Of a DNA stretch of 33,402 bases, positions 8,380 through 32,543 are shown in pieces (within the stretch, counting starts at the first letter, position 1; the number at the start of each line of letters is the position of its first letter). Position numbers and translations under genes: made by a program. The notes beneath the pieces were generated by a model, which had not been told where the DNA came from, did no database searches, and saw only the letters and a program-made list of their open reading frames with translations. Source of the stretch: Deltaproteobacteria bacterium (lineage in GTDB: Bacteria; Desulfobacterota; Desulfarculia; Desulfarculales; Desulfarculaceae); the NCBI GenBank assembly GCA_021811275.1, contig JAJZPI010000023.1:1-33402 (forward strand), read 5' to 3'.

Positions 8380-9441
8380 ATGTCGGGCGATCAGCACAAG
8401 GAGTCAGCCATGGCCTCGGAAATCGGCGTTACCGTCACCCAGCACCTGCTCAGCCAGCAGGCCCAGCATGGAGGGGCCACCGGCGCCTTCACCCGCCTGC
8501 TCAACGAGTTGATCCTCTCGGCCAAGATCATCAGCCGCGAGGTCAACAAGGCCGGCCTGGTCGAGATTCTGGGCTTCACCGGCGAACGCAACGTGCAGGG
8601 CGAGCGGGTGCGCAAGCTAGACGAGTTCGCCCACGACATGATCGTGCGCCGCATGGAGCAGAGCCGTCAGCTTTGCGTCATGGGCTCGGAGGAGGACGCC
8701 GACCCCATCGAGATGCCGCCCCACGCCGAGAAGGGCGAGTACGTCCTGCTCTTCGACCCCCTGGACGGCTCCTCGAACATCGACGCCAACGTCAGCATCG
8801 GCACCATCTTCAGTATCCTGCGCAAACAGAGCCAGGGTGTCGACTACCAGATGGGCGATCTGTTGCAGCCGGGTTTCAAGCAGGTGGCCGCCGGCTACTT
8901 CCTCTACGGCTCCTCCACCATGATGGTCTACACCACCGGCAACGGGGTCAGCGGTTTCACTCTGGACCCCAGCGTGGGCGAGTTCCTGCTCAGCCACCCC
9001 CAGATCGAGATACCCTCCTCGGGCAAGATATTCTCGGCCAACGTGGGCTATTGGGATTACTGGAACGAGGACACCCGAGCCTACCTTGACTACCTGCGCA
9101 AGCCCGGCCCCAAGAAGCCGGTCTACTCCTGCCGCTACATTGGCTCGTTGGTGGCCGACTTCCACCGCACCCTGCTCTACGGCGGCGTATTCCTCTACCC
9201 CGCCGACAGCAAGGACCCCAGGAAGCCTCACGGCAAGCTGCGCCTGCTCTACGAGTGCAGCCCCCTGGCCTTCGTGGTGGAGCAGGCCGGCGGCGCGGCC
9301 AGCACCGGCAAGGAGCGCATCATGGAGGTCTCGCCCCAAGAGCTGCACCAGCGGGTGCCGATCATCATCGGCAGCCCCGAGGAGGTGGCCCTGGCCGAGG
9401 AATTCTTCGCCGGCCGCCGCCCGCGTGCCGAGGGGGCCTGA
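8380..9441 (+). CDS. fbp: Fructose-1,6-bisphosphatase, class I
   Basis: This enzyme hydrolyses fructose 1,6-bisphosphate to fructose 6-phosphate in gluconeogenesis, using divalent metal. Class I landmarks are the metal-binding DPLDGSSNIDANVSIGT, NVQGE near the N-terminus, the substrate-side YIGSLVADFHRTLLYGG and the C-terminal KLRLLYECSPLAFVVEQAGG. The ATG at 8380 has GGGAGGT seven bases upstream. ATG 8410, with AAGGAG six bases upstream, is a serious alternative and would give 343 instead of 353 residues, matching the usual family start (xxIGVTVTQHLL) better. It appears to be its own transcription unit. Confidence 0.96.
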   Translation: MSGDQHKESAMASEIGVTVTQHLLSQQAQHGGATGAFTRLLNELILSAKIISREVNKAGLVEILGFTGERNVQGERVRKLDEFAHDMIVRRMEQSRQLCVMGSEEDADPIEMPPHAEKGEYVLLFDPLDGSSNIDANVSIGTIFSILRKQSQGVDYQMGDLLQPGFKQVAAGYFLYGSSTMMVYTTGNGVSGFTLDPSVGEFLLSHPQIEIPSSGKIFSANVGYWDYWNEDTRAYLDYLRKPGPKKPVYSCRYIGSLVADFHRTLLYGGVFLYPADSKDPRKPHGKLRLLYECSPLAFVVEQAGGAASTGKERIMEVSPQELHQRVPIIIGSPEEVALAEEFFAGRRPRAEGA

Positions 9442-9533
9442 GCGGGCCGGGTGAGATAGTCGCCAGAACTGGCCTTGCCCGCTCCCGTTGAAGGGCCACA
9501 TCGTGAGAATCATAAGGCAGGGGCGGGGTTCAT

Positions 9534-16741: not shown

Positions 16742-17908
16742 TCAATGCCAGGCCGCTTGCCCGTATTGCTTCAGAAGCGCCTCCATCAGCGGGGCGGGGG
16801 CGAAGCGCCTGGCGACATCTTCGGCGGCCCTTGCTCCCATGGCCGGCCCCTCTCCGCCGGCCAGACGGTCGGCGGCCGCGGCCAGGGCCTGGGCATCGCC
16901 CGGGGGCAGGGCCAGCCCCGTCACGCCGTCGTTGAGCCAGTCCGCCACCCCGCCCACCCGAGAAGCGGCCACCGGCGCGCCCAGGGCCATGGCCTCCAAG
17001 CCCGAGATGCCGAAGGGCTCGGCCCAGAGGCTGGGCAGCCAGAGGCTGGCCGCGCTGGCCAGGAGCCGGCCCATGGCCGGACGGTCGGCCCAGCCGGCAA
17101 AGCGCAGGCGCTCGGGGGTTCGCGCGGCCGCCCGGCGCGCCTCCCCGGCCAGGGGGCCGTCGCCGGCCACCACCAGGGGCAGGGGATTGGCCATCATCAG
17201 CGCGGCGTCGAGCGCCACCCGCACGCCTTTGCGCTCCACCAGGCGGCAGGCCAGCAGGTGGTGGGTCCTGGGCCGGGGTTCGGGCGCGGGAGCGGACGCG
17301 AGACCATGAACGAAAGGCGGCAACACTACTATGCGCGCCGGGTCCAGGCCGGCGGCGGCCAGCTCGCCCGCCATGTAGGAGGACAGCGTCAGCAGCCGGC
17401 GCATACCCGCCAGAGTTTCAAGCCTGCGCCGGGTCAGATCCAGCATGCGCCGGCCGTGGACGGCCTCTTGGAAGCAGGCCAGGCATCCCTCGCCCAGGGG
17501 CGCGCGGCATATCTGGCCCGCGGCGGTGAGCTTGCCCAGGCCGGGGCAGAAGGCCCGGTGGTCCTGGACGGTCATCAGCGCCCGGCCCGTGGCCGCGCAG
17601 AGGCCCAGCAGGTCCGGGTCCATGATGTTGTGCAGGTGAATCGCGTCGGGGGCGAAGTCCGCGATGAGCCGGGCCAGGCGCTGGCGCGCGCCTTGGCCTC
17701 CGCGCGCGCTCCAGCCGCCGCGCTCCAGGCCCTTGAGCCTTTGCCAGGATCCCAGGCGTCGACGTTCTTCTTGGGGCAGGCTGCCGTCGTCCAGGCCAAC
17801 GGCCAGGAGGGTCTCTACCCGCCCCCGCAGTCGATCGAGCACGCCCCAAAGGTGGCGGTCGGCCCCGCCCCGAGCCGAGAGGCGGTCATGGAGGTGCAGC
17901 ACGCGCAT
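16742..17908 (-). CDS. Family 4 glycosyltransferase
   Basis: The 388-residue GT-B protein has N-terminal MRVLHLHDRLSARGGADRHL and a C-terminal donor domain with LLACRLVERKGVRVALDA and EPFGISGLEAMALGAPV, the EX7E motif that binds the nucleotide-sugar phosphate and sugar. A Cys-rich insert (CPGLGKL, then CRAPLGEGCLACF) follows MTVQDHRAFCPG, as in one GT4 subgroup of cell-surface mannosyl- or glucosyltransferases. Acceptor and donor are unknown. It is the last gene behind the housekeeping cluster but is separated from tsaB by the repeat array. The ribosome binding site is weak. Confidence 0.9.
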   Translation of the reverse strand: MRVLHLHDRLSARGGADRHLWGVLDRLRGRVETLLAVGLDDGSLPQEERRRLGSWQRLKGLERGGWSARGGQGARQRLARLIADFAPDAIHLHNIMDPDLLGLCAATGRALMTVQDHRAFCPGLGKLTAAGQICRAPLGEGCLACFQEAVHGRRMLDLTRRRLETLAGMRRLLTLSSYMAGELAAAGLDPARIVVLPPFVHGLASAPAPEPRPRTHHLLACRLVERKGVRVALDAALMMANPLPLVVAGDGPLAGEARRAAARTPERLRFAGWADRPAMGRLLASAASLWLPSLWAEPFGISGLEAMALGAPVAASRVGGVADWLNDGVTGLALPPGDAQALAAAADRLAGGEGPAMGARAAEDVARRFAPAPLMEALLKQYGQAAWH

Positions 17909-17932
17909 GGGCTAAGGCTTTCCCCTGGCTCA

Positions 17933-18295
17933 ACAAGCTCCAACGGGAGCGACGAACGCTGGCCAGGGGGGCAAGCCGCCCGACCCGCTACGCCCGCCGG
18001 GGCGCCCGGCCAGCTCCGTGTCCATTGAACAAGCTCCAACGAGAGCGACGAACGCTGGCCAGGGGGCAAGCCGCCCGACCCGCTACGCCCGCCGGGGCGC
18101 CCGGCCAGCTCCGTGTCCATTGAACAAGCTCCAACGGGAGCGACGAACGCTGGCCAGGGGGCAAGCCGCCCGACCCGCTACGCCCGCCGGGGCACCCGGC
18201 CAGCTCCGTGTCCATTGAACAAGCTCCAACGGGAGCGACGAACGCTGGCCAGGGGGCAAGCCGCCCGACCCGCTACGCCCGCCGGGGCGCCCGGC
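17933..18295. repeat. Tandem array of a 95-bp repeat, about 3.8 copies
   Basis: Units start at 17933 (96 bp), 18029 (95 bp), 18124 (95 bp) and 18219 (77 bp, truncated next to the tsaB stop). They are nearly identical: unit 1 has one extra G in a G-run, unit 2 has one G-to-A change (AACGAGAGC) and unit 3 one G-to-A change (GGGGCACCC). Each unit holds GCTCC-AACG-GGAGC (the G-to-A change weakens it in unit 2) and a GCCGGG/CCCGGC stem. The unit length is not a multiple of three, so any reading frame rotates between copies and none is coding-like. It fills nearly the whole 387-bp gap between tsaB and the GT4 gene. Confidence 0.93.
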
Positions 18296-18997
18296 TCACT
18301 CGATAAGGCGGTATTCGTCCAGGGGAAGGCCGAAGCGCACCTCGGCCTCGGAGGGGCGCAGGTAACGGGGCTTGATCTCCTCCGGACCCACTCCGTTTCC
18401 CGACTCCAGGAGTTCCTCGCCCAGGAGGGCCAAGAGCCCCGGCCTAGGCAGGCCGGCCCAGGCGGGGGCCAGTTCCAGGCCGGGCGCGAGCAGTTGCTCG
18501 CGGTACATCCCGGCCCCTTCGCCCACCAGCAGCGCCGGTGGCTCCAGGCGCTCGGCCAGCCGGACCGGGCTCATGGCCGCGTCCTGGTCCAGACGCCGGA
18601 CCTCGCCCCCCTCGACCTGGAAGGGCGCGGCGTAGACAAGGCCCCGGCGGGCGTCGGCCACCGCCCATAGGCGGCCCTCGCGCGAGCGGCAGGCCTCGGC
18701 CATGACCCGCAGGGTGGAGACCCCGGCGACCTTGAGCCCCAGGCCCAGGGCCAGGCCCTGGGCCGTGGCCAGGCCGATGCGCAGGCCGGTGAACAGGCCG
18801 GGCCCCAGAGTGACCGTCAAGCCCTCAAGCTGCTCCCGCCCCGCCTGGCACTGAGCCAGCAGAAACTCGACCGCGGGCAGCAGGCGCTGGGAATGGGTGC
18901 TGGCGGCGACGGCGAAGATCTCGCCCAGGAGCCGGCCCTCGCGGGCCAGAGCCACCCCGGCGGGGGCGAAGCTGGTGTCGATGGCCAGGACGAGCAT
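18296..18997 (-). CDS. tsaB: tRNA threonylcarbamoyladenosine biosynthesis protein TsaB
   Basis: TsaB is the scaffold partner of TsaD in bacterial t6A37 synthesis and belongs to the ASKHA fold. The 233-residue protein shows MLVLAIDTSFAPAGVAL, THSQRLLPAVEFLL, the diagnostic VTLGPGLFTGLRIGLATAQG and VADARRGLVYAAPF. It begins eight bases after the rseP stop, so it closes the housekeeping run. Its stop abuts the truncated last unit of the 95-bp repeat array, so the array has grown or inserted right at the end of the gene. Confidence 0.95.
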   Translation of the reverse strand: MLVLAIDTSFAPAGVALAREGRLLGEIFAVAASTHSQRLLPAVEFLLAQCQAGREQLEGLTVTLGPGLFTGLRIGLATAQGLALGLGLKVAGVSTLRVMAEACRSREGRLWAVADARRGLVYAAPFQVEGGEVRRLDQDAAMSPVRLAERLEPPALLVGEGAGMYREQLLAPGLELAPAWAGLPRPGLLALLGEELLESGNGVGPEEIKPRYLRPSEAEVRFGLPLDEYRLIE

Positions 18998-31118: not shown

Positions 31119-31516
31119 TAAAATGGCTTTTTCGGCCTTGGCCAGGCACCTTGGCAGCCGAAACGGGTCGGGCGACGCGGGTTACCTGGCTCAAGCCGTG
31201 CATGCTCCCGTAGGGCCTCGCGGCAGGCAAGACGGCTGTCACGCCGCTTGCTTGGGGCGGCCTGGGGAAGCCTTGCGCTTCCCGTCCGAGCAAGCGCCTC
31301 GCCAGCCTGAAGGCGACCGCGAAAACCTTCCCGCTTGTGCGAAAGTGTTGGTGATGGGTAGTCTAGTACTCGCGATGTACCGAGTGGAAAATCGTGGGCT
31401 ATCCTTCAATCGCCTTTTCACCAGGACCAAATTTTCGTCCCACGATTTAAATGGTGAGGAGAAAATGGCAACGGCGGAGCCAAAGTATTTATTTCCTATT
31501 CGTGGGACAACTAGAA

Positions 31517-31544: not shown

Positions 31545-31649
31545 ACGAAGAAATACCAAGCTTTTCGGTGCTACCCTCCACCGGGAGCGCGCGCGGCCCG
31601 TAAGCGGAAAAACCTCATCGACCCGCCTTGCCCCGCCGGGGGCACCCGG

Positions 31650-32543
31650 CTAGCCGCGAGGGTGGTGGAGCTTGTGGACCTCGGAGAGGCGCTGGGTGGT
31701 GAGGTGGGTGTAAATCTCGGTGGTGGAGATGTCGGCGTGGCCGAGCATGATCTGGACGCTGCGCAGGTCGGCCCCGCCCAGGAGCAGGTGGGTGGCGAAG
31801 GTGTGGCGCAGGGTGTGGGGGGTGACCTCGCCGGGGATGGCGGCGGCGGTGACGTGCTTGCGCACGATCTTCCAGGCCCCCATGCGCGTGAGCGGTCCGC
31901 CCCGGTTGCTGATGAGCACCTCCTCGCGGCGGTTGCCCTTGAGCAGGCGGCGGCGGGGGCCTTCGAGGTAATCCTTGAGCAGGGCCAGCGCGGTCTCGTG
32001 CACGGGGACCAGGCGCTCCTTGCCGCCCTTGCCGCGCACGGCCAGGCAGCCCACCTGGAACTGGACCTGGCCCACGCCCAGACTGATGACCTCGCTGATG
32101 CGCAGGCCGGCGGCGTACATCAGCTCCAGCGTCACCCGGTCGCGGGCGCCGAGGTCGGTGGCGGGATCGGGGGCGGCCAGCAGGCGGGCGACCTCCTCCT
32201 GGCTGAGGAAGCGGGGCAGGCCCCCGGGCAGGCGGGGTCCCTCCAGGGTGGCCAGGGGGTCGTCCTTGACCAGGCCGTTCTCGTAGAGGTAGCGGAAGAG
32301 GCCGCGGGCGGCGGAGAGGCGGCGGGCCCTGGTGCGGGCGGCGAGCCCCTCGCGGCTCATGGCCGCCAGCCAGGCCACCACGTGCAGGGCGTCCACCCGG
32401 GGCCAGGAGTCCACGCCCTGGACCGCGAGGTAGGTGGTCAGCTCGCGCAGGTCGGAGGCGTAGGCCTCCAAGGTGTTGCCGGCCAGGGCCCGCTCGGCGG
32501 TCAGATGGGTCAGGAACAGGTCCAGGCCCTGGTCAAAGCTCAT
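31650..32543 (-). CDS. xerD: Tyrosine recombinase, XerD/XerC type
   Basis: Xer recombinases resolve chromosome dimers at dif near the division septum. The 297-residue protein has the N-terminal SAM-like core-binding domain (LTAERALAGNTLEAYASDL; ARRLSAARGLFRYL) and a complete catalytic domain: Arg in AAGLRISEVISL, Lys in GKGGKERLVPV, HTLRHTFATHLL, LGHADIS and the nucleophile Tyr in TTEIYTHLT. Length matches chromosomal Xer, not phage integrases. XerD is favoured over XerC by overall resemblance only. The ATG lies inside the end of the aminopeptidase gene (11-base overlap) and has no clear own ribosome binding site, so it is probably coupled. Confidence 0.88.
   Translation of the reverse strand: MSFDQGLDLFLTHLTAERALAGNTLEAYASDLRELTTYLAVQGVDSWPRVDALHVVAWLAAMSREGLAARTRARRLSAARGLFRYLYENGLVKDDPLATLEGPRLPGGLPRFLSQEEVARLLAAPDPATDLGARDRVTLELMYAAGLRISEVISLGVGQVQFQVGCLAVRGKGGKERLVPVHETALALLKDYLEGPRRRLLKGNRREEVLISNRGGPLTRMGAWKIVRKHVTAAAIPGEVTPHTLRHTFATHLLLGGADLRSVQIMLGHADISTTEIYTHLTTQRLSEVHKLHHPRG

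Follow-up and report, generated by a model that had tools for sequence, protein, structure and literature searches.

What accounts for a near-identical tandem array that fills the gap between tsaB and a glycosyltransferase gene, and does it act on either neighbor? The locus lies in a 33,402-nt stretch of Desulfarculaceae DNA, analyzed here at its full length (the window). The original prediction had described near-identical 95-bp repeats abutting the tsaB stop codon, and TRF recovered this array at 17932-18295 (period 95, 3.8 copies, 98% matches, score 705) as by far the strongest tandem array of the window, with its true start one base earlier than first given. Its four units measure 96, 95, 95 and 78 bp (17932-18027, 18028-18122, 18123-18217 and 18218-18295) and differ at exactly three positions, where about three had been noted: one indel and two substitutions, each private to a single unit (an extra G in the 17932 unit, a G to A change in the 18028 unit and another in the 18123 unit). 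The gap between tsaB and the GT4 gene measures 387 bases, of which the array takes 364. Base 18295 of the array directly adjoins the stop codon of tsaB, a minus-strand TGA that reads TCA at 18296-18298, bearing out the reported abutment. The copy at the stop had been called the last, which holds in plus-strand order; transcription on the minus strand runs tsaB, array, GT4 gene, which makes that copy the first in gene sense and puts the end of the array 23 nt upstream of the GT4 start codon. Read on that strand, the unit consists of an element of ~79 nt and a 17-nt linker, CAATGGACACGGAGCTG, which is the same in all three gaps. The units thus have no variable spacers, as predicted, and a CRISPR is ruled out. 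The features of the locus are as follows, with bit scores from the covariance model described below.

16742-17908, minus strand: GT4 glycosyltransferase, next gene downstream of tsaB (PF13692, 9e-24; PF00534)
17932-18027, minus strand: unit 4 (distal), element 17932-18010 and linker 18011-18027 (68.0 bits)
18028-18122, minus strand: unit 3, element 18028-18105 and linker 18106-18122 (62.5 bits)
18123-18217, minus strand: unit 2, element 18123-18200 and 17-nt linker 18201-18217 (68.3 bits)
18218-18295, minus strand: element copy 1 in gene sense, beginning at the tsaB stop (66.8 bits)
18281-18295, minus strand: 5' hairpin GCCGGG-CGC-CCCGGC of copy 1, from the first base after the TGA stop (read from the sequence; helix 1 covaries among 115 distinct copies)
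18296-18997, minus strand: tsaB (PF00814, 7e-27)

Copies in the genome and its relatives

A lack of other genomic copies had been named as a sign of neutral duplication, and this is clearly not what we found. A DNA search of the same genome with the array unit returned 18 places, and a search with a 29-base core, allowing up to 3 mismatches, matched at 29 places, the reversed control at none. A covariance model built from an alignment of 19 copies raised the count to at least 125 in this genome, and to at least 135, 99 and 48 in the congeners G003, G002 and G001, respectively; with 150 candidates scored per genome, these numbers are lower bounds. The original observation stands, and its interpretation needs widening to a family of dispersed copies to which the unit belongs. 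Besides the tsaB array, the window holds three further dispersed copies.

9420-9499, plus strand: dispersed copy (60.0 bits); the TGA stop (9439-9441) of the upstream gene 8380-9441 lies inside the element, which would encode the last residues of that gene
31141-31221, plus strand: dispersed copy (45.4 bits) in the same intergenic gap as the next, on the opposite strand
31570-31650, minus strand: dispersed copy (57.7 bits) whose first base is also the final base of the TAG that ends gene 31650-32543

The model matched all six genomes of the genus, gave a handful of borderline hits elsewhere in the family, in other genera, and found nothing in the remaining 43 genomes of the class. A looser two-block pattern detected a divergent, clearly cognate form in the sister-genus genome G007 and in G013; applied class-wide, this pattern becomes noisy once the family is left behind, matching no more often than its reversed control. 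G007, probably Desulfarculus baarsii DSM 2075, is a single contig of 3,655,731 bp; its arrays are spaced at 96 and 70 bp, and its hairpin reads GGCCGG-YGC-CCGGCC. No element match was found in plasmids or phages, and an origin from either was set aside. Neither G002, G003 nor Desulfocarbo indianensis, the nearest named TsaB relative (63%), has the element behind tsaB, and we reject a conserved tsaB-linked element.

Architecture of the element

In gene sense the element begins with a 6-bp hairpin with a YGC loop, followed by NCCAWRGCGGGTCGG, a spacer of variable sequence and nearly fixed length (~30 nt), and GCGCTCCCGTT, a 3' block also written GCGCTCCCGTTGRRGGC. Among 115 distinct copies, hardly any variation affects the unpaired blocks CGGGTCGG and GCTCCCG. 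A MITE or IS end would have terminal inverted repeats and a target duplication; in the consensus the element ends are not inverted repeats of one another, and one insertion (L191/L230, below) shows a 10-bp direct repeat. The 5' module of 30 nt (the hairpin and the GCGGGTCGG block) is itself repeatable, 23 of 116 copies having at least one extra module in front.

Single units are unremarkable in folding energy (z -0.6 to -1.9 against shuffles of this GC-rich sequence), and the argument for structure therefore rests on comparison. Among the 115 distinct copies, helix 1 is paired in 95.6% of cells and five of its six pairs are doubly changed, with double-change cells over the whole structure numbering 134; shuffling leaves 44.5 +/- 4.5 of them and sliding no more than 33. 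Helix 1 alone is supported by mutual information, helix 2 being nearly invariant. The stem occurs as GCCGGG, GCGGCG, GGCGCG, GCCCAG and GTCGAG, each with its complement, and it has switched even between orthologous sites of G002 and G003 (GCCGGG-AGC-CCCGGC versus GCCGCG-AGC-CGCGGC at L208/L221; GCCGGG/CCCGGT versus GCCGAG/CTCGGT at L212/L218). The stem changes show a pressure or mechanism that preserves the palindrome. Such covariation can also come from DNA-level template-switch correction of imperfect palindromes, which would give the same pattern. Helix 1 departs from Watson-Crick pairing in 42 cells, only 12 of them G-T pairs; this is no enrichment and no clear sign of tolerance at RNA level, and the covariation is thus no proof of RNA function.

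These observations bring in the most serious alternative, a purely neutral repeat whose palindromes are kept by template-switch correction and which survives mostly behind stop codons since insertions elsewhere harm genes. A stem that drifts freely yet stays paired, also at the two orthologous sites above in congeners that are ~95% similar, is what such a repeat would show, as are the absence of G-U enrichment in helix 1 and of a conserved site at tsaB. The near invariance of the two unpaired blocks across 115 distinct copies speaks against it, as does the placement of the copies discussed below. We regard this neutral reading as a real contender, albeit not the favored one.

Searches for a known counterpart of the element gave no Rfam match within the window at the gathering threshold, so that no known Rfam family is indicated, and nothing relevant for eight element loci at E up to 1; no described repeat of Desulfarculales that corresponds to it was found in the literature. 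Among the closest likenesses are REP/BIME repeats, of which the GTAG and CGTC superfamilies have been described and whose ends can supply a TAG stop (Di Nocera et al. 2013, PMC3733652). Shared traits include more than 100 short palindromes per genome, which are intergenic and for the most part located immediately 3' of a gene, subfamilies whose stem changes are complementary, clustering in tandem together with flanking DNA, and a TAG stop supplied by the repeat (PMC3733652). Unlike REPs, the element has no GTAG or CGTC tag beside its palindrome; no conserved tetranucleotide precedes it among 116 copies, TAG occurring there mainly as a stop codon. It also measures ~79 nt and has another conserved block at its 3' side, and its arrays run head-to-tail, whereas REP/BIME dimers are head-head or tail-tail. 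A BIME has palindromes of alternating orientation joined by defined linkers; here some opposite-strand neighbors exist (for example, C26 331-408 plus and 470-548 minus). In contrast to GTAG-type REPs, no RAYT or transposase gene adjoins it. BOX of Streptococcus pneumoniae (PMC3049150) is, by description, similar in its modular composite build (boxA-boxB(n)-boxC), in which the number of internal modules varies; it sometimes supplies the stop of the upstream gene, and its array length varies between strains (PMC3049150). It belongs to an unrelated organism and varies in boxB number, whereas the present family varies in the number of 5' hairpin modules and of whole elements. The element is thus a member of the broad REP/BOX kind, not of the GTAG or CGTC families.

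Arrays, gains and losses

Besides the tsaB array, 13 others occur in this genome, and the 14 together hold 34 of 116 copies. Linkers are identical or nearly so inside one array and unrelated between arrays; homology of the C83 and C142 array linkers was not significant. In C149 and C209 the linkers combine distal-flank-like with proximal-flank-like sequence, as expected if an element was duplicated together with its flanks, while the origin of the tsaB-array linker is not evident. The variable copy number that had been suggested for the array was seen in sister arrays of the close pair G002/G003, with 2 versus 1 copies (L205/L224) and 3 versus 0 (L187/L228); the tsaB array itself is represented by one strain. 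At L191/L230 (1 versus 0 copies), the 10-bp direct repeat AGGGGCGGGG stands twice in the filled site and once in the empty one.

Local tandem amplification of a dispersed element of REP/BIME-BOX type is, as a whole, the likely explanation of the array. That the element belongs to a non-autonomous, dispersed palindromic family of this kind we hold with high confidence, given its copy number, its modular architecture and its presence or absence between congeners. Very probably, the tsaB array arose by local duplication, and the recent expansion that had been proposed gains support from the near identity of its units and from the 13 other arrays. One copy behind tsaB would have been amplified in tandem, probably by replication slippage or unequal recombination that carried short flanks along as linkers, as the arrays suggest.

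Mobilization by the RAYT/IS200-type transposases of the genus is unsupported: their flanks carry other sequence, and no element match better than E 0.05 was found at the Y1 transposase loci L039 and L170-L174. We note that L171 (G005) and L173 (G003) encode intact RAYT-like Y1 transposases of 168-170 aa flanked by a different repeat, roughly CCGGACAACAAGTTGTCCGG as read from translated frames, which may be the transposases' own REP family. The only Y1 transposase match of the genome under study (G000 C160 926-1255, minus strand; L039) contains an in-frame TGA, and GTGCTCCCGTCGGAGCC just upstream of it resembles the element 3' block. At L132, L126, L112 and L040 the sequence downstream of the element shows a second repeat of REP-like form, roughly GTAGGGCGGGTTAGCG...CGTAACCCGCC; it often comes within ~20-40 nt of the element, in a mosaic-like manner. 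In G002 the young GTCGAG-stem subfamily sits within another palindrome, GGGGCGGGG...CCCCGCCC, and at L187-L194 and L199-L201 it forms a nested mosaic inside GGGGCGGGG-TTTA-TCCCCGCCC. L004 and L050 carry yet another dispersed intergenic palindrome, starting with TTATACCAA or ATACCAATAAGC.

Placement at stop codons

Gene calls for the following counts come from a codon-usage caller, which is heuristic and was checked by eye on the window. The upstream neighbor is co-directional with the element in 86 of 111 cases and divergent in 25. Element starts fall at -1 or 0 of the upstream stop in 27 copies and within -2..+4 in 37 of 93 once extra 30-nt hairpin modules are allowed for; G002 shows the same spike (7 of 31 within -2..+4). 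No stop of a convergent gene lies within 20 nt of an element 3' end. Gene avoidance, as the neutral reading has it, predicts neither docking at exactly -1 or 0 nt nor an 86:25 strand bias. A stop-codon hairpin as a general trait of all genes is rejected, as none of 78 element-free gene ends has a perfect hairpin at offsets -3..0.

TAG is over-represented at docked stops (25/33 versus 58/147, p 2e-4). About ten further copies contain the upstream stop at fixed positions within their own sequence, in which case the element would encode the last residues of the upstream protein. Where docked copies are present in G002 and absent in G003 (L204, L211, L198), the stop codon differs too, and these sites give no clean-insertion alignment. 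The TAG enrichment and these stop differences hint at a class of non-autonomous repeat that would arrive with or replace the host stop and place a hairpin at the terminating ribosome as a removable 3' control module, a reading we consider rather unlikely.

For tsaB, the hairpin at the stop in gene sense would most probably form the start of the transcribed 3' UTR, and the transcript element that had been proposed, a candidate role, fits both position and sense orientation. In E. coli, REPs that lie no more than 15 nt from a stop codon are reported to stall ribosomes, as that work is cited in PMC12306157 (its ref. 17); the element hairpin likewise falls within the critical distance given there, and it differs from the REPs so cited in docking at exactly 0 nt in many copies. 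By this analogy, a stop-codon hairpin probably affects mRNA end stability or translation termination of the upstream gene. For the tsaB transcript in particular, an effect of the array or its hairpin is a tentative proposal, and the array next to tsaB may itself be neutral.

Could the element instead be a transcription terminator without a U tract, multiplied to separate tsaB from the GT4 gene? A strong GC hairpin in sense orientation directly after stops would suit this role, but element-free genes have no such stop hairpins, which implies that the element is not a general terminator of this genome. The scan of 17600-18600, which demands a T run, found no terminator-like site; this argues against an intrinsic terminator of hairpin and T run, the scan being blind to types without a U tract. 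Nor did a simple consensus scan find a promoter-like site for the GT4 gene. Taken together, we judge a terminator unlikely.

An effect on the GT4 gene is harder still to uphold. The protein-binding array or phase-variable spacer that had been offered, setting GT4 expression, could draw on the invariant unpaired blocks as binding sites and on the differing array copy number of congeners at other loci; copies nevertheless follow genes of many different sorts, and 44 of the 116 lie where two genes converge, so that no general link to GT4 genes or promoters exists. Regulation of GT4 by the array is accordingly very unlikely, and a binding or phase-variable array in particular highly improbable. 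Least credible of all is an assembly artefact in copy number: the draft has 245 contigs and short reads handle repeat arrays poorly, but the private differences require at least three distinct units and similar arrays occur in other genomes, including the single-contig G007.

We conclude that a dispersed family of palindromic repeats, which docks at stop codons, has undergone many expansions, the tsaB array being one of them. The element is an additional repeat family, for which no earlier description was found, in the family of Desulfocarbo-like bacteria. Its gain, loss and copy-number change can be compared directly in the close congener pair G002/G003, and its docked, undocked, tandem, lost and stem-switched copies form a natural series for a wider question about hairpins of REP type at stop codons: does selection keep them for what they do to termination and to the ends of mRNA, or are they only well-placed parasites?
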